A DNA stretch of 64,000 bases from Thermococcus sp. (lineage in GTDB: Archaea > Methanobacteriota_B > Thermococci > Thermococcales > Thermococcaceae): positions 1-64,000 of the forward strand of contig NZ_JAMOQU010000103.1 of NCBI RefSeq assembly GCF_027063845.1, read 5' to 3'. The position numbers were made by a program, and so were the translations under genes. This document shows positions 9,400 to 20,058 of this stretch, piece by piece (the stretch's first letter is position 1; each line of letters opens with the position of its first letter). The notes under the pieces were generated by a model. It saw only the letters and a program-made list of their open reading frames with translations, made no database searches and was not told the DNA's origin.

Positions 9400-9858
9400 A
9401 TGGAGTGGAGGGAAAGGCTGAAGGGCCTTCTCGAACCCTACGGCGAGGTTATCGAAACCGAGAAGGGGTTAATCTTCGAGTTCGGCGACGACGAAGGGGA
9501 CTTCTCCGACAGGCTCGCCTTTGTCATCGAGAAACCTGAGGAGTGGCCGCTGGTGGAAGTTGCGGTAAAGGCGATAGCGGATTTAACCGACCACGACGTC
9601 CCTGGGAGGAACCTCTTCGCCTTCGGCTTCGAGCCCGACTTCGAGGGAACGCTCATCAGGCTCGGCATTCTGGATGGGAAGCCCGGGGAAGGGCCGGTAA
9701 TCGGGGATGTTCCCGAGAAAGTCGTTAAGATAGCGGAGCGCAACGGCATCAAATACCAGCGCGGGGACGGAGAGGGAATCGGCCTTCCAAAGGACTTCAC
9801 GGAGGAGGACTTTGAGGCCCTGATAAAGCTCGTGGAGGCCGTTGCCTTCGAGTGGTGA
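9400..9858 (+). CDS. conserved hypothetical acidic protein, 152 aa
   Basis: I do not recognise it. Strongly acidic soluble protein starting MEWRERLKGLLEPYG, with a GDDEGDFSDRLAF segment and a C-terminal helix. No Cys, signal peptide or membrane segment. It follows the hydroxyacid dehydrogenase by 10 bases (AGGTGGTTTGA SD overlapping the stop) and precedes the first TauE gene by 4 bases, so it belongs to a three-gene transcription unit. Confidence 0.75.
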   Translation: MEWRERLKGLLEPYGEVIETEKGLIFEFGDDEGDFSDRLAFVIEKPEEWPLVEVAVKAIADLTDHDVPGRNLFAFGFEPDFEGTLIRLGILDGKPGEGPVIGDVPEKVVKIAERNGIKYQRGDGEGIGLPKDFTEEDFEALIKLVEAVAFEW

Positions 9859-9862
9859 TGGC

Positions 9863-10627
9863 ATGCTGAAGTACCTCTCCTACTTCGCGGTTGGAATCTT
9901 CATCGGCATCCTCGCGGCACTGTTCGGCCTCGGAGGGGGCTTTTTGGTGGTACCCGTTCTCAATTTACTCGGCATTGAGATGCACCACGCGGTCGGAACC
10001 TCAAGCGCGGCCGTCGTCTTTACCTCCCTCAGCTCGGCGATAGCTTATTCACGGCAGAAGAGGATACACTACAGGGTCGGCCTCCTGCTGGCCTCGACGG
10101 CTGTTATAGGCGCTTACATAGGGGCATGGCTCACCTCGTTCATCAGCGCCTCACAACTAAAGGTCATCTTCGGGTTAGCACTCATCGCCGTTTCTGTAAG
10201 GATATACCGCAAGAAGACCGCAGAACCGAGCGAGGTCAGGCTTGAGGACGTTAAGGTGAACTACAAGCTCGTTCCTGTCGGTGGATTCTTTGCGGGAATC
10301 GCGAGTGGCCTGCTCGGCGTTGGTGGTGGGATAATCAACGTGCCGTTCCTGACTTACCTAGGCTTACCAATACACTACGCCGTTGCCACATCAAGCTTTG
10401 CGATTGTTTTCACTGCTTTAGCAGGAGCGCTCAAGCACTACGCGATGGGCAACGTGGAAACGCAGTGGCTCGTCCTCCTCGTTCCTGGCCTTATAATCGG
10501 GGCCCAGCTCGGGGCGGGGATAGCAAGGAGGACGAAGGCGAGCAGTCTAAAGAAGACCTTCGCCATCGTGATGTTTCTCCTGGCCCTGAGGATGATTCTG
10601 AAGGGCCTCGGCTTTGGAATCCCGTGA
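9863..10627 (+). CDS. TauE/SafE family permease (first of tandem pair)
   Basis: Membrane protein of 254 aa with about eight hydrophobic segments in two homologous halves. Each half carries the family's Gly-rich motif: FGLGGGFLVVPVL (near residue 23) and LLGVGGGIINVPFL (near 158), each followed by HxAVxTSS (HHAVGTSSAAVVFTSL; HYAVATSSFAIVFTAL). TauE/SafE proteins export sulfite, sulfoacetate or related anions; the substrate here is unknown. ATG 9863 is supported by GGTGATGG. The next gene is a paralogue. Confidence 0.9.
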   Translation: MLKYLSYFAVGIFIGILAALFGLGGGFLVVPVLNLLGIEMHHAVGTSSAAVVFTSLSSAIAYSRQKRIHYRVGLLLASTAVIGAYIGAWLTSFISASQLKVIFGLALIAVSVRIYRKKTAEPSEVRLEDVKVNYKLVPVGGFFAGIASGLLGVGGGIINVPFLTYLGLPIHYAVATSSFAIVFTALAGALKHYAMGNVETQWLVLLVPGLIIGAQLGAGIARRTKASSLKKTFAIVMFLLALRMILKGLGFGIP

Positions 10628-10658
10628 GGTTTTTAAGAAACCCCCTCAACCTTTTCCC
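10628..10658 (+). promoter_or_regulatory. promoter giving a probable leaderless mRNA
   Basis: Box A candidate TTTTTAAG at about 10631-10638 is centred roughly 25 bases before the ATG at 10659, and no SD precedes that ATG. Transcription would start at or next to the start codon. Confidence 0.55.
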
Positions 10659-11390
10659 ATGCTCCAGTACCTCCTTGATTTTGTACTCGGCCTCGGCATT
10701 GGATTTATAGCGGGTCTCCTCGGTGTCGGGGGTGGCTTCCTGATAGTGCCGACCCTCGTCCTCCTCGGCGAGCCGATACATCTCGCTATAGGCACAAGTT
10801 TAACATGCATAGTCCTCAGCTCTCTTTCTGCTTCAATAACGCACATTCGGAGGGGTGCCGTCCTCTACCGCGTCGTTCTCCTGAAGGAGATTTTTTCCGT
10901 CCCCTTCGCGGTTCTTGGTGCTTACCTCTCATCCAGACTCCCTGAGAGGGGGCTCAGGCTGGTCTTCGCGTTCCTTCTCCTTTACCTCGCCTATACAATG
11001 GCCAGGAAGAAATGCAGACCTCACGACGAAGAGGGCGCGGTTCACTACTCCCGCGTTCCGGTTGTGGGAATCCTTTCGGGCCTTGTGAGCGGGCTCTTGG
11101 GCATAAGCGGCGGCGTTCTCAACGTTCCGCTCTTCCACACCTTCGTGGGCATACCTATGAGGTACGCCGTTGGAACCTCGAGCTTTGCCCTCTTTTTCAC
11201 GGCCTTGGCCGGAGCCTTCGAGCACTACCGCCTCGGACAGGTTGATTTACACATGGCCTTCCTCCTCGCCCCGGGGCTCATAATCGGGGGCAGGCTCGGT
11301 GCCTTAACGGCCCACAGAGTTCACCCCAAAACCCTCAGGAGGGCCTTTGCGGGAGTTCTAATCCTGGTCGCGCTCAAGATGCTCCTGTGA
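10659..11390 (+). CDS. TauE/SafE family permease (second of tandem pair)
   Basis: 243 aa, paralogue of the preceding gene with the same two-halved layout: LLGVGGGFLIVPTLVLLG near residue 20, HLAIGTSLTCIVLSSL, and LLGISGGVLNVPLF / RYAVGTSSFALFFTAL in the second half. About seven or eight membrane segments. ATG 10659 is chosen because it opens on the first membrane helix (MLQYLLDFVLGLGIGF); an upstream in-frame ATG at 10614 would overlap the previous gene and run through the promoter. Despite tight spacing it appears to have its own promoter. Confidence 0.9.
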   Translation: MLQYLLDFVLGLGIGFIAGLLGVGGGFLIVPTLVLLGEPIHLAIGTSLTCIVLSSLSASITHIRRGAVLYRVVLLKEIFSVPFAVLGAYLSSRLPERGLRLVFAFLLLYLAYTMARKKCRPHDEEGAVHYSRVPVVGILSGLVSGLLGISGGVLNVPLFHTFVGIPMRYAVGTSSFALFFTALAGAFEHYRLGQVDLHMAFLLAPGLIIGGRLGALTAHRVHPKTLRRAFAGVLILVALKMLL

Positions 11391-11431
11391 AGGTTTATTA
11401 ACTCCGGCATTAAGTCCCAGCGGTGGAAGCT

Positions 11432-11704
11432 ATGGAGGAGCTCGTGGAAAAGGTTCGCGAGAAGTTCGACCTTGAGGTTAAAGATATGGCCGACGCCTGG
11501 AGGCTCGTTGAGTGGCTTGAGGAAAAGGAGTGGGTCATCTACATCATAACGGCCAAGGACAGAAAGCAGGTCGATGCATGGCACCCGCGCTACGGAACGC
11601 TCTTCGCCCAGTTCGGGGAGGTTCCGAACTTTGGAAGCATTTTAGAGGGTATTTTGACCGTTGCACTATTAGCCAGAGAGCTTGAGGAAAAAGGAACGAT
11701 TTGA
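11432..11704 (+). CDS. conserved hypothetical protein, 90 aa
   Basis: Small acidic protein starting MEELVEKVREKFDLEVKD, with aromatic-rich KEWVIYIITAKDRKQVDAWHPRYG. No recognised family, no membrane segment. ATG 11432 has GGTGG at 11422-11426. A TTTATTAA box A candidate lies at 11394-11401. The stop overlaps a perfect 16-bp palindrome (11702-11717). Codon use is normal for the window. Confidence 0.7.
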   Translation: MEELVEKVREKFDLEVKDMADAWRLVEWLEEKEWVIYIITAKDRKQVDAWHPRYGTLFAQFGEVPNFGSILEGILTVALLARELEEKGTI

Positions 11705-11717
11705 AACGCGCGTTTCA
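11702..11717. promoter_or_regulatory. perfect 16-bp palindrome upstream of cassette copy 1
   Basis: TGAAACGCGCGTTTCA equals its own reverse complement. It starts on the stop codon of the preceding gene and lies 48 bases before the first gene of the duplicated cassette, just upstream of an A/T-rich box A candidate (about 11726-11733). Candidate regulator site. Confidence 0.5.
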
Positions 11718-11765
11718 GCGAAGTCCTCAAATATGTCAAACCCGTAGTGCCAATCGGTGATTTCG

Positions 11766-12974
11766 ATGGTGAGCGCGAAGTTGGGGGCGTTTGCCCTCGT
11801 CCTGTTGCTGATTGGAAGTGCCGTCCCAGTGGCCCTGGCCGAGGGCAACACCACCGCAGACCAGGGGTACGGGCCCTCCACGGACGACGGCTCCAGAGAA
11901 AAGGCCATAGCTGGCCAGCTGATTAGCCAGCTCCAGAGGCTCAGCGGGTTCGCAGAAAAGAGGATAGGGCCAATAAAAGACAAGTTACCTGAGAACTCAA
12001 CGATACTGACCCACTACAAACTCGCCGAGGAATACAAGGAAAGGGCGGTAAGTGAATACGAAGCTGGCGACTATTATAATTCGATACTGGATGGCCTCAC
12101 CGCCATGCACCACTACAGGATTGCCCTCTCTGCCCTCAAGGAAACCAGAGACAAGGTCAAAACGGCAAGAGAACGCATGAGGCTTGAGACCGAGCGCATG
12201 ATGGAGTACTTCAGGTTCGTCGAGAAGACCATAAGACTGGCGGAAAACCAGGGGATAGACGTAAGCAACCTGACCATTCTCTACAAGGAGACAAAGGATG
12301 CCTACGAAAAGGTGATGTGTGACCTCAAAGCCAGAGATTACGAGAAGGCAAAAGAGGACTATGAAATCGCCAGAGAGAAGAAAGCCCTCCTTGACGAAGA
12401 ACTGAGAGAGGTTCGCGAACAGCTCGCCTACGCAAACGCCGACAAAATCGTCAGGGACTTCCTGATTAAGGGAGAGAAGGAGATGGAGATGGCCCAGAAG
12501 GCAATAGAGATTGGCATGGAGAAAGGCTACAACGTAACGGAGCTCCAGGAGAGGCTCAACGCCTTCTCAGAGGTTTACGAGGAAGTCACGACTCTCGCCA
12601 ATGATGGCAGGTGGGAGGACGCCCTCACCGTCCTGAAGGACAACAGGCAAACCATAGCCGAGTTCCACAGGGCCGTTAGGTTCATACTCAAAAAGGTTCG
12701 CGAGAGGGAGCTCGATGGCAAGCTTAAGGACGTCCGCGCATTCCTCAGGGAGATGAACGACAGGATTGGAAAGGACAGAAAGGCCCTGATGGAGCTCAAG
12801 AAGAGGGGCATCAAAACTACGAGGGCCGAGGTTCAGCTAAGGGTTGCGGTTCAGGAGCTGAAGGTTGGTGTTGAACTCCTCAGGGCGAAAAAACCCATCC
12901 AAGCCAAGGCCCACTTTGCGGTGGCACTGGACATGCTCCACAGGGTGGAAGACTTCATACTCGCCCACTCCTGA
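11766..12974 (+). CDS. secreted/surface alpha-helical protein (cassette copy 1, component A)
   Basis: 402 aa. Signal peptide: VSAKLGAFALVLLLIGSAVPVALAEG has a hydrophobic core and an ALA-E cleavage-like site. The mature part is almost entirely charged alpha helix, with long Glu/Lys/Arg heptad-like stretches and TPR-like short helices (YKLAEEYKERAVSEYEAGDYYNSILDGL near residue 80). The motif DYYNSILDGLTAMHHYRIAL is echoed by the paralogue at 13988 (KYNETIKEAILAMHLYRMAI). No catalytic motif seen. ATG 11766 has GGTGAT at 11756-11761. The next gene follows after 28 bases, so the pair is one operon. Function unknown; a scaffold or sensor outside the membrane is an inference. Confidence 0.82.
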   Translation: MVSAKLGAFALVLLLIGSAVPVALAEGNTTADQGYGPSTDDGSREKAIAGQLISQLQRLSGFAEKRIGPIKDKLPENSTILTHYKLAEEYKERAVSEYEAGDYYNSILDGLTAMHHYRIALSALKETRDKVKTARERMRLETERMMEYFRFVEKTIRLAENQGIDVSNLTILYKETKDAYEKVMCDLKARDYEKAKEDYEIAREKKALLDEELREVREQLAYANADKIVRDFLIKGEKEMEMAQKAIEIGMEKGYNVTELQERLNAFSEVYEEVTTLANDGRWEDALTVLKDNRQTIAEFHRAVRFILKKVRERELDGKLKDVRAFLREMNDRIGKDRKALMELKKRGIKTTRAEVQLRVAVQELKVGVELLRAKKPIQAKAHFAVALDMLHRVEDFILAHS

Positions 12975-13002
12975 CCTTTCTTTTTCACAGGGAGGGGGTC
13001 AA

Positions 13003-13857
13003 ATGGGGCTCAGAGAGGTTGCGGTCACACTCATTGTTGCCCTAACTCTTCTGCAGGGGGTTAGTGCTTACACCGTTTCATCGCTGGTTTTGGTTGTTTA
13101 CAGCGACGGTTATGTAAAGGTAGAGTACGAGCTCCTGCCCGAGGAATACTCCACCCAGATTGAACTTCCCCTTCTCGGGGACCATTACGAAAACGTCATC
13201 GTTGAGGATGAAGACGGGAACCCCCTGGATTTCAGGCTTGAGAACGGAACCCTCTTCATTTATCAAGGAAACGCCGAGTTGGTTAGGGTCTCGTACTACA
13301 CCCCAGACCTGACATCCAAGAGTGGAATAGTATGGACAGTTAACGTATCCACAGAGGTTCCCTTCGACGTCGTTCTCCCCAACGACACTATCATAGTTGA
13401 TTTGAGCGATATACCGCTCCAGATAAACGGAACGGCTATAACGATGCCCCCAGGAAATCAGAGCGTCTCCTACATCATCGAAGACCACCAGAGCTTTCCT
13501 TCAGAGGAAAGCAATGAGAACAGCGACTTAAGGCCTCTCTATGCCCTTAGTGGGGCCGTTCTCGTTGCATTGGGAGTGTTCGTGTGGTGGAGGAGTAGAC
13601 GACAAAATGGTGAAGATGAAGAAGACGGGGCGAACGTCATCGAGAGGGCCCTTGAAAGCGACGAGCTGAGGGAGGAAGAAAAGCTCGCGCTGAAGTACCT
13701 GCTGGAGCACGGCGGACGGGCCAGTCAGGCAGAGATAAGGGACGCGCTCGGAATTCCGAAGACCACCGCATGGAGAATGTTCAGGCGCCTCGAAGAGAGG
13801 GGGCTCGTTAGAATCATCCGGGGGAGGAAAGAGAACTGGGTGGAGATAAGACGTTAG
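13003..13857 (+). CDS. membrane-anchored winged-helix protein (cassette copy 1, component B)
   Basis: 284 aa. N-terminal signal/anchor (LREVAVTLIVALTLLQGVSA), an extracellular beta-rich domain of about 190 residues, a single membrane helix (LYALSGAVLVALGVFVWW), then a cytoplasmic winged helix at about 220-284 (AEIRDALGIPKTTAWRMF RRLEERGLVRI). Such proteins are thought to pass an outside signal directly to DNA. The extracellular domain shares DLSDIPLQINGTAITMPPGN with the paralogue at 14913. ATG 13003 has GGAGGGGG at 12991-12998. Confidence 0.85.
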   Translation: MGLREVAVTLIVALTLLQGVSAYTVSSLVLVVYSDGYVKVEYELLPEEYSTQIELPLLGDHYENVIVEDEDGNPLDFRLENGTLFIYQGNAELVRVSYYTPDLTSKSGIVWTVNVSTEVPFDVVLPNDTIIVDLSDIPLQINGTAITMPPGNQSVSYIIEDHQSFPSEESNENSDLRPLYALSGAVLVALGVFVWWRSRRQNGEDEEDGANVIERALESDELREEEKLALKYLLEHGGRASQAEIRDALGIPKTTAWRMFRRLEERGLVRIIRGRKENWVEIRR

Positions 13858-13948
13858 AGAAAATGTTATATCCCCTTTATTCCCAATTCTATCCGCCTGA
13901 AATCGAAAGGAACCTGCGGAAACGTTTTAAGTCATTCGTCCCACCGCT

Positions 13949-13962
13949 TCCCTAATTAGGGA
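13949..13962. promoter_or_regulatory. perfect 14-bp palindrome at predicted start site of cassette copy 2
   Basis: TCCCTAATTAGGGA is self-complementary. A box A candidate (GTTTTAAG, about 13924-13931) lies about 25 bases upstream, so the palindrome covers the expected transcription start of the gene at 13988. A GAAACGTTT element (13919-13927) just upstream resembles half of the palindrome in front of copy 1. Confidence 0.5.
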
Positions 13963-13987
13963 TGAGCCGTAACCTAAAGCGGTGATA

Positions 13988-14893
13988 ATGGTGAGGAGAA
14001 TCGCGTTCATGATTATCGGGATACTGCTCGTCTCACTTGTTCCGGCAGTCGGAGGGGTTAGCTCTGAGACCGTCTTCGCTTCAACACGAGCAAACGGACT
14101 GCTCCTTGCATTGGACAGGCTCGCCAACTACACTCACTCCATTAACTGCACCTCCGAGCAGGCCGACGCCCTTCGTGAAAAGGCCTGGGAGCTCTACAGG
14201 GCCGAAAAGTACAACGAGACAATTAAAGAGGCAATACTGGCAATGCACCTTTACCGTATGGCAATAAAGGTCTGTCAGGTTGGGGGAGAGGAATTGGCGG
14301 AGAAAACCGACTGGATTTCAATCGCTGAAACAGAAGTGGCCATCGCTGGGAACGTTCTGGAATATGCCAGGAAGCTAATTGAATCGGGCGAGCTGAGCGG
14401 AGAGGAGCTGAGGGAACTCGAAGCCGAGTACAACCAAACTCTCTGGGTCTACGAGGGACTGAAAGAATCCCTTGAAGAGAACGATACTCAGGACATAGTT
14501 CACAAGGTGGCGTTCCTTCGGACGTCGAGGCTGAAGCTCGAGAAGGCCCTCAACAAGGTGGTTCACAACTCAGTCAGGGCAAAAGCCAAGCTCCTGGGAC
14601 AGGCTCAGCTACGCAGGATTGATGAGCTTATCGAAATGGGCGCTAACGCAACCGAACTCCTAATCCTAAGGGCAGAGCTCGAGAACGCAATCAAGAATGG
14701 AAACAGTGAAGAGGTTCTTCGGTTGCTCGGGGAAATCCCCAAGGTCTTGGTGGAACTGGAGAGGAGGGGCAAAATACGGGGAATTACCCACACAATCCCA
14801 GGACGTCCATCGTTCCCTGGAAGTTCCGTTGAAGGCGTTCCAAATACGCCACCAAAGAAGGCCCCGAGAAAAGGTTCGGGAGGCAAGAGATAA
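13988..14893 (+). CDS. secreted/surface alpha-helical protein (cassette copy 2, component A)
   Basis: 301 aa, shorter paralogue of the gene at 11766. Signal peptide (RIAFMIIGILLVSLVPAVGG), then charged helices with the shared KYNETIKEAILAMHLYRMAI motif near residue 75 and a C-terminal low-complexity basic/proline tail (PKKAPRKGSGGKR). Two Cys in the mature region (INCTSEQ and IKVCQVG). The start is ATG 13988 or GTG 13991; the SD GGTGAT at 13981-13986 fits GTG 13991 slightly better by spacing. Component B follows 19 bases after the stop. Confidence 0.8.
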   Translation: MVRRIAFMIIGILLVSLVPAVGGVSSETVFASTRANGLLLALDRLANYTHSINCTSEQADALREKAWELYRAEKYNETIKEAILAMHLYRMAIKVCQVGGEELAEKTDWISIAETEVAIAGNVLEYARKLIESGELSGEELRELEAEYNQTLWVYEGLKESLEENDTQDIVHKVAFLRTSRLKLEKALNKVVHNSVRAKAKLLGQAQLRRIDELIEMGANATELLILRAELENAIKNGNSEEVLRLLGEIPKVLVELERRGKIRGITHTIPGRPSFPGSSVEGVPNTPPKKAPRKGSGGKR

Positions 14894-14912
14894 CGTGGCC
14901 GGAGGGAACACC

Positions 14913-15929
14913 GTGAAAGGTTACTTGGCACTGGTGCTTTTGTTCCTTACACTTCCCATAGCCCTTGGACAGGCAACGGTTGAAACCGTTTTAGTTGAAG
15001 TGTACGATAGCGGATACGCCAAGGTAATCGAAGCGGCGACTCCCTCGAACTATTCAGTGGCCATTGAAATTCCACTTCTGAGTGAAGACATCACGGGGCT
15101 CTCTGTGTTCGATGAGAATGAAAATCCCCTCCTCTTCGAGAAGAACGGGAGCGTTCTCACTGTTTATGTCCTTAATTCGACGACTAAAATTATTGTCACG
15201 TACTTTACGGCCTCGCTGACCTCAAAAGAGGGGGAACTCTGGAACCTGACATACGTCTTCCCATACCCCGTTACGATAAAGCTCCCCCCAGGGGCCATGG
15301 TCGTTGATTTAAGCGATGTTCCCCTCAAGATAACCTCCGACACAATAACCATGCCTCCGGGAAACCAGAGCGTTTCCTACATCTTACCCCTCCCAGTTAC
15401 CACGACACCATCTCAATCCCCAACATCAACCACATCGACCACGACAACGAGGGCATCAAGCTCGGATACACAATCAACGACTTCTTCAATTCCAGTTAGT
15501 ACAGTTCCGAGCATGCCTACTTTAAGTTCCCCAGCGACGACCTCCAAGAGCACCGCTCCCGAGAATCTGACCACATCAACGCCCTCCAGCCGGGGAGGTT
15601 TACCATTGCTCCCAATGCTCGGCATCCTGGCGGTTATTGGCATCCCAGCAGTCGCATACTGGACTAAGAAGAGGAGAAACCCTGGGAACCTGCCCCTTTC
15701 AAGGGAAGAATTTAGAGAAAAGCTCGAAGCGATGGGTCTCACCGACGAGGAAATCAATGCGCTCCTTTACGTCTATGACCAGGGCGGAAAGGCCAAGCAG
15801 GCCGACGTCAGGAAAGCCCTCGGGATTCCCAAAACGACAGCATGGAGAATGTTCAAGCGCCTTGAGGAGAAGGGACTCGTGCGGGTTTACAAGAGGGGAA
15901 AGGAGAACTGGGTGGAGCTGGTGTTTTAG
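14913..15929 (+). CDS. membrane-anchored winged-helix protein with Ser/Thr-rich stalk (cassette copy 2, component B)
   Basis: 338 aa, paralogue of the gene at 13003. Signal peptide (MKGYLALVLLFLTLPIALGQ), beta-rich outer domain with DLSDVPLKITSDTITMPPGN near residues 132-151, a Ser/Thr/Pro-rich stalk of about 65 residues (about 165-230, resembling glycosylated S-layer-proximal linkers), a membrane helix (LPMLGILAVIGIPAVAYW) and a cytoplasmic winged helix (RKALGIPKTTAWRMFKRLEE) at the end. The stalk is absent from copy 1. GTG 14913 is chosen for GGAGGG at 14901-14906; earlier in-frame codons overlap the preceding gene. Confidence 0.85.
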   Translation: MKGYLALVLLFLTLPIALGQATVETVLVEVYDSGYAKVIEAATPSNYSVAIEIPLLSEDITGLSVFDENENPLLFEKNGSVLTVYVLNSTTKIIVTYFTASLTSKEGELWNLTYVFPYPVTIKLPPGAMVVDLSDVPLKITSDTITMPPGNQSVSYILPLPVTTTPSQSPTSTTSTTTTRASSSDTQSTTSSIPVSTVPSMPTLSSPATTSKSTAPENLTTSTPSSRGGLPLLPMLGILAVIGIPAVAYWTKKRRNPGNLPLSREEFREKLEAMGLTDEEINALLYVYDQGGKAKQADVRKALGIPKTTAWRMFKRLEEKGLVRVYKRGKENWVELVF

Positions 15930-18892: not shown

Positions 18893-20058
18893 GTTGCAAT
18901 AAGACTCGAAGAGAATTGAAAGTTAGTAGCCCTCCAGCTCAACCTTCGAGAACGGCGGGTTGCAATAAGACTCGAAGAGAATTGAAAGGAGGATAAAGAT
19001 GGAAAGGAAGTAAACCCCTGTGGGTTGCAATAAGACTCGAAGAGAATTGAAAGCAGGCCTGAGACCATGCCACGTTAAGAGGCTCTCCCGTTGCAATAAG
19101 ACTCGAAGAGAATTGAAAGTTCTTCTTCCCTATTCTCATTTCGCCATCCCTCCTAGTTGCAATAAGACTCGAAGAGAATTGAAAGATAGACTGAAGCCCA
19201 CACCAGGAGGCCTGGAATCGTGGTTGCAATAAGACTCGAAGAGAATTGAAAGTGGGGCCTCATCATCTGGCTTGGGCTTCCGATATTGGTTGCAATAAGA
19301 CTCGAAGAGAATTGAAAGGAAAGGCATCTTTGGTAACTCGGATTGGATCATCGGTGTTGCAATAAGACTCGAAGAGAATTGAAAGCGAAAGTGGGTATTT
19401 CGGGAGTGGAAGTCTCTAAGGTGTTGCAATAAGACTCGAAGAGAATTGAAAGTATCACCTCCTCAACTGTTGCGGCTGAGAGATGAAGGTTGCAATAAGA
19501 CTCGAAGAGAATTGAAAGTGGGCTGGGCGAGAAGGCCGAGCTTCCGGAATCAGTACGAGTTGCAATAAGACTCGAAGAGAATTGAAAGTGTTAGGGCTGT
19601 TGAGGACCTCCTCGACGACATGGATGTTGCAATAAGACTCGAAGAGAATTGAAAGTCGGAAACATCTTCTTTGAGAGCAAGTAACCCATATCGTTGCAAT
19701 AAGACTCGAAGAGAATTGAAAGGGTGTTTAAAGATAAAGGCCGCTTCGTCGTCGTAAATCGTTGCAATAAGACTCTAAGAGAATTGAAAGGGGAGAATGG
19801 AATGAGGTTGTGGTATCTTGGGGGGTTGCAATAAGACTCTAAGAGAAGAGAATTGAAAGTTTTAAGTCATCATCATTCTCTGCCTCGATGATTTCGTTGC
19901 AATAAGACTCTAAGAGAATTGAAAGATAGTTCTTTCGTGTAGTTCAAGCCGACGATGGTGTGTTGCAATAAGACTCTAAGAGAATTGAAAGTAGCATCAC
20001 CCGATAAGAATAAGCTGGGTGGGTATAAGTTGCAATAAGACTCGAAGAGAATTGAAAT
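18893..20058 (+). CRISPR. CRISPR array, 18 repeats and 17 spacers
   Basis: Repeat unit is 30 bases, starting GTTGCAATAAGACTCGAAG and ending AGAATTGAAAG. Repeats start at 18893, 18959, 19024, 19090, 19156, 19223, 19289, 19356, 19423, 19489, 19559, 19626, 19693, 19761, 19825, 19896, 19962 and 20029. Spacers are 34-40 bases. Repeats 1-13 are identical; repeats 14-17 read CTCTAAG instead of CTCGAAG; repeat 15 carries a 5-base duplication (35 bases, 19825-19859); repeat 18 has G again but ends GAAAT, the usual decayed terminal copy. The 3' ATTGAAAG is the standard crRNA 5' handle, so transcription is left to right. No cas genes are in the window. Confidence 0.98.

Follow-up and report, generated by a model that had tools for sequence, protein, structure and literature searches.

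Two tandem gene pairs in a Thermococcaceae genome, each encoding a secreted helical protein (A) and a membrane-anchored regulator (B), probably represent a form of Thermococci signalling that operates without a kinase. The anchored B would activate the A-B operon through a predicted operator, and the secreted A would feed back on it. Both cassettes lie across positions 11766-15929 of the window, the 64,000-nucleotide stretch of DNA analysed here, and the A-B cassette contains no kinase gene. The operator predicted from sequence in the promoters of type I A genes, GRAACG-nn-CKTTYC, is newly described here, and searches of the literature on DUF7343 and on the operator sequence found no paper on the A-B system.

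All four genes are on the forward strand. A1 (11766-12974) encodes an exported all-helical protein of 402 amino acids, of the lineage named here type I, with a signal peptide followed by helical residues 41-401. B1 (13003-13857, 284 amino acids) consists of a signal peptide, a beta ectodomain (residues 23-159), a membrane helix (178-202) and a winged helix (209-282). A2 (13988-14893, 301 amino acids, type II) is again exported and helical and ends in a basic low-complexity C-terminal tail; B2 (14913-15929, 338 amino acids, type II) starts with GTG and has an ectodomain, a stalk, a membrane helix and a winged helix. The preliminary description of this locus as two consecutive pairs with the same architecture agrees with the gene limits and with the AlphaFold2 models of A1 and B1, and the motifs it named, MPPGNQSVSYI and VDLSD in B and an AMHxYR-type helix in A (AMHHYR and AMHLYR), are all present in both copies. 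Beyond B1 and B2, no further full B copy was found in the window's genome.

The cassettes are preceded by two tandem TauE/SafE permease genes and a 93-aa ORF, and followed by a convergent metG. The permease genes (9842-11390, immediately 5' of the cassettes) keep their order in many relatives; a possible link between them and A-B was considered, and the association is restricted to the main locus. The 93-aa ORF (11423-11704), whose last codons and stop overlap operator 1, has relatives at 8 of the loci compared, and no convincing family was found for it. A CRISPR array lies between metG and a cysS-like gene (18893-19672), with 12 copies of the 30-nt repeat GTTGCAATAAGACTCGAAGAGAATTGAAAG spaced about 66 nt apart.

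B1 and B2 are paralogues (BLASTP E value 8e-41, 32% identity). The AlphaFold2 model of B1, built with an alignment of its relatives, reached a pLDDT of 87.8 and runs in the order ectodomain, disordered linker, membrane helix, winged helix, so that outer, membrane-spanning and DNA-binding parts lie in one chain, the layout that marks a transmembrane transcription regulator. The signal peptide of B1 looks cleavable, and basic residues come after the membrane helix. Sequons occur at 2.31 per 100 residues in the outer part of B versus 0.13 in the inner part, an asymmetry that supports the predicted topology. Taking a score over the curated Pfam cut-off as membership, the winged helix of B1 belongs to DUF7343 (PF24034; 32.0, cut-off 27.6), MarR_2 (34.1, cut-off 27) and TrmB (33.4, cut-off 25.6), and each of the 27 B proteins in the alignment matches them at E<=0.1. 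Pfam families reach just this domain of B; the ectodomain and protein A have none. The winged helix is intact, and its recognition helix, IPKTTAWRMF, is identical in B1 and B2 and near-invariant among A-linked relatives.

A search of the PDB by sequence found no relative of the B ectodomain. By fold, the best PDB matches of the B model were to the N-terminal beta domain of M1 aminopeptidases (E about 1e-4, probability 1.0), at a sequence identity of about 6-15%. The likeness concerns that beta domain alone: B has neither the catalytic zinc peptidase domain nor any Pfam peptidase match, and its identification as an M1 aminopeptidase was rejected.

The AlphaFold2 model of A1 (pLDDT 85.8) is all-helical past the signal peptide, and the sequence contains a weak internal repeat. 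As single sequences A1 and A2 match weakly (22% identity, E 7e-7). The two families are nonetheless homologous lengthwise, with an hhalign probability of 100% and an E value of 1.4e-44 over 305 columns, and intermediate sequences also bridge them. In the A copies scanned the signal peptide is the sole hydrophobic helix, with no membrane anchor, and N-glycosylation sequons occur at 1.92 per 100 residues. No Pfam or PDB relative of A1 was found, and Foldseek returned no match of the A model with E < 0.1. Matches to designed helical proteins in the PDB sequence search look compositional and were set aside; weak Pfam matches of individual members (YfdX, MIT, TPR, EzrA) were inconsistent among members and were discarded.

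As the preliminary description anticipated, A and B co-occur in other genomes, adjacent across three families and with congruent trees. B1-like proteins are present in 89 of the 94 family genomes (72 of the 74 good ones) and A1-like proteins in 83 (68 of the good ones). With A1 alone as query, an A match lies directly upstream of B at 123 of 148 B places, and many of the remaining places hold an A too diverged for this query, such as A2. The pair was seen at all 23 named loci with enough flanking sequence. In two further families of the same class, f2 and f4, adjacent pairs were found in 4/4 and 4/5 genomes, respectively. For 80 pairs the A and B trees are congruent, with a Mantel r of 0.74 against a best value of 0.26 in 999 permutations.

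Two lineages can be distinguished among the pairs. Type I, the first copy in the window, has a short B linker and an A that ends in an HRVEDFILAHS-like helix. Type II, the second copy, has a Ser/Thr-rich B stalk of 38-84 residues among its members (74 residues in B2, 54% of them Ser or Thr), and nearly all of its A proteins carry a low-complexity charged tail. The two copies fall in separate clades in the A tree and in the B tree alike and so split long ago; the tandem duplication reported in the preliminary description therefore holds as a layout, found in 22 of the 94 family genomes (and inverted in two), and not as a recent event. Its Ser/Thr stalk of copy 2 is likewise real, although it was not acquired locally, since it is common to the type II lineage.

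Upstream of A1, the predicted operator 1 (11693-11716, forward strand) reads GGAACG-ATTT-GAAACG-CG-CGTTTC, that is, a direct half-site followed by the perfect palindrome TGAAACGCGCGTTTCA (11702-11717). A predicted TFB/TATA element, TCCTCAAATA (11724-11733, forward strand), starts 7 nt past the 14-nt palindrome core. The A1 promoter is the sole exact match to operator plus promoter in the window's genome, and a like site with like spacing precedes the A genes of most related genomes. The distance between operator and TCCT/TATA is fixed at 7 nt; on inspection by eye, several orphan A copies have 18 nt, which adds one helical turn. Among 114 A-upstream regions compared with GAAACGnnCGTTTC, 55 matched with <=1 mismatch and 71 with <=2, against 0 and 0.6 in shuffles. 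In type I promoters of Thermococcaceae a third half-site lies 10 nt upstream, whereas the sites of f2 and f4 consist of the palindrome alone. Type II promoters instead have direct half-sites, two or three in number and repeating every 10 nt (13 of 15; shuffled, 0.01). The predicted operator 2 upstream of A2 (13909-13924, forward strand) is of this kind, GGAACC-TGCG-GAAACG, and is weaker than operator 1; its last half-site, GAAACGTTTTAAG, could instead belong to the core promoter.

It is the position of the palindrome that is enriched, not its abundance. The bare exact palindrome occurs at 25 sites genome-wide versus about 35 for the reversed control and is not over-represented, yet 15 of the 25 sit just upstream of A genes. 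Within a promoter context the operator was found at 129 sites in 115 genomes, versus about 31 in the control, and its strong operator-promoter core at 96 sites, 77 of them directly upstream of A genes (two of these, on a check of coordinates, precede broken A copies). Strong sites are present in 68 of the 99 genomes with B and in none of the 16 without; the associated p of 1e-7 ignores relatedness, and the 0/16 is not an independent count, as the B-less genomes are in the main either incomplete or members of a single other family, and A too is missing from most of them. Direct repeats alone were not specific in the window's genome (7 sites versus 5 in the control). No further targets were found there, <=3 mismatches giving 65 sites versus 42 in the control. 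That the palindrome acts in RNA, as a hairpin or terminator, is disfavoured by its 2-nt loop and its position upstream of the TATA element.

Operator and promoter were also found together before a LamG-like membrane-anchored protein (three genomes), a GH39 secreted protein, a DrrA-like ABC exporter (two genomes) and, in a weaker form, a PMT-like membrane protein. Most of the other site-bearing genes encode envelope-type proteins. In several species the arrangement precedes part of the members of a ~106-aa family. This uncharacterised family (FLFKxGxLxGVY motif; L257:1383-1703, relatives L301-L329) occurs in 33 of the 94 genomes.

We propose the following mechanism. The B ectodomain would face the pseudoperiplasm, with one helix spanning the membrane and the C-terminal winged helix on the GRAACG half-sites. 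B most likely senses the extracytoplasmic state together with the secreted A, which would act on its ectodomain. In archaeal promoters, an operator lying immediately before the TFB element accords with activation, and B on the palindrome most likely activates the A-B operon, on which A would close a feedback loop; in some species B may activate other cell-surface genes as well. Type II cassettes would read the same half-site as direct repeats, their stalk lifting the ectodomain, and the 10-nt phasing would put the half-sites on one face of the DNA, which would suit a membrane-tethered protein. Activation rather than repression, contact between A and B, and a signal from the state of the envelope are what we infer here. 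The shared site suggests that B switches on its own partner and that outside events reach genes with no kinase between. The one-component route from the outside to DNA put forward in the preliminary description is in keeping with the adjacency, the congruent trees, the intact winged helix, the kinase-free cassette and the conserved operator in the A promoter, which fits direct DNA output. The role of A as sensor partner is complicated by the operator standing before almost every type I, short-B and orphan A gene: A counts as the main regulated product no less than as a putative sensor.

A wider reading is conceivable, and we hold it tentatively: the secreted A and the tethered activator B would be a new kind of envelope sensor, an outside receptor that controls the A family and other surface genes by reading, next to the membrane, GRAACG half-sites set in helical phase. 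Duplicated cassettes, sharing one recognition helix, would then have come to differ in how far they reach (stalk, tail) and in whether their operators are inverted or direct repeats.

The same operators could point to a different division of labour. A might act as co-sensor or stabiliser, or else as an inhibitor that can be titrated. CpxP is an inhibitor in the bacterial Cpx system, and by analogy A may be a secreted feedback inhibitor titrated by envelope damage, so that B senses and A resets it. A is exported and all-helical, and as the main regulated product, with the operator before even orphan and short-B copies, it would suit this role; no known inhibitor sharing sequence or fold with A was found, and we regard the proposal as plausible but somewhat doubtful.

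The exceptions to the A-B pair bear on what A does. About 14 genomes have, after A, a short B of about 190-200 amino acids that ends past the membrane helix and has no winged helix. Short-B loci include L093-L102 (for example L093:4312-4896 and L100:4546-5112), where one tail matches the sorting domain CGP-CTERM just below the cut-off. Ten genomes have an A with no neighbouring B, and most of the cases inspected adjoin leuS and a dipeptidase gene. In Pyrococcus-like genomes, a gene of the B branch is directly downstream of, or overlaps, a DUF134 gene, with no A (L115, L116, L119, L120, L123, L125, L127, L195 and L196); this arrangement is possibly a second coupling of the same membrane regulator. 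From these cases together it follows that A and the ectodomain can occur in the absence of DNA output, as B can in the absence of A. The A genes with no B, or with a B that has no winged helix, argue that A has some role besides DNA output. A and the B ectodomain could then form a surface structure, such as a spacer from membrane to S-layer, whose assembly the winged helix reports as a secondary function. Short B proteins, with at least one CGP-CTERM-like tail near the cut-off, the solitary A genes and the surface proteins among the other site-bearing genes would all suit such a structure. The winged helix and its near-invariant recognition helix are kept in most pairs, however, and we consider a primarily structural role unlikely.

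The palindrome might also be owned by another regulator, with B acting elsewhere. The absence of A from most B-less genomes would allow for this, but across three families the site follows B, and it vanishes where the recognition helix differs. IPKTTAWRMF accompanies GRAACGnnCKTTYC in the operator-bearing Thermococcaceae lineages, and f2 and f4, with near-identical recognition helices, keep the palindrome; the f4 B (IPKTS-WRM) goes mostly with GGAACGnnCGTTCC. As far as these groups were examined, the palindrome was not found with the Pyrococcus-type A-B (LPKTTVWRMI/V), with the DUF134-linked B (IPRTT-WRI) or with f5 (IPKTSLSKL). Nor was any other regulator gene seen to be constant in the neighbourhood, which makes a foreign owner of the site quite improbable. 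From this co-tracking, a correlation between sequences, we infer that B binds the predicted operator. That A and B are mere syntenic neighbours without a functional link, as the conserved order TauE-TauE-ORF-A-B-metG at the type I locus might suggest, is very hard to believe, as the pair stays adjacent at unrelated loci and, in other families, amid different neighbours, with overlaps or short intergenic gaps between A and B and congruent paralogue trees.

The closest parallels to the proposed kinase-less A-B system are the co-component systems. In the VtrA/VtrC superfamily, whose regulator and partner form an obligate outer heterodimer, the DNA-binding domain is N-terminal, cytoplasmic and OmpR-type, whereas the winged helix of B is C-terminal and MarR/TrmB-like. 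VtrA/VtrC and ToxR/ToxS of enteric bacteria pair a kinase-less regulator with a lipocalin-like partner (PMC9214523). The likeness lies in an adjacent, often overlapping gene pair, a partner acting outside, no kinase, and a regulator with outer domain, single membrane helix and DNA-binding domain in one protein. Unlike the lipocalin-like, tethered partner of VtrA/VtrC, A is all-helical, exported and without a membrane anchor or a PDB fold match. The differences in partner fold, partner anchor and DNA-binding domain position and type place A-B outside the VtrA/VtrC superfamily. Thermococci are enriched in membrane-bound one-component transcription regulators according to a survey of archaeal transmembrane transcription regulators, which B resembles in this respect; the passages searched in that survey mention neither an exported partner nor an operator for the Thermococci proteins (PMC10269533). 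ArnR and ArnR1 of Sulfolobus have their helix-turn-helix in the N-terminal region (PMC13286277), unlike B with its C-terminal DNA-binding domain. A-B is best read as a transmembrane regulator of archaea that works without a kinase and has an exported partner; it resembles the co-component systems and is unrelated to them.

To our knowledge, little is known about how information passes from the surface to the genes in Thermococci-type archaea. The comparison suggests that the co-component plan of enteric bacteria arose independently in archaea. The series of recognition helices and operators (type I, type II, f2, f4, Pyrococcus-type and DUF134-linked) amounts to a natural experiment in DNA specificity and in how membrane-bound regulators read inverted versus direct repeats. 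Nearly every genome of the family has the two-protein A-B system, and its predicted DNA site is precise, so that the system can be tested in genetically tractable Thermococcus strains.
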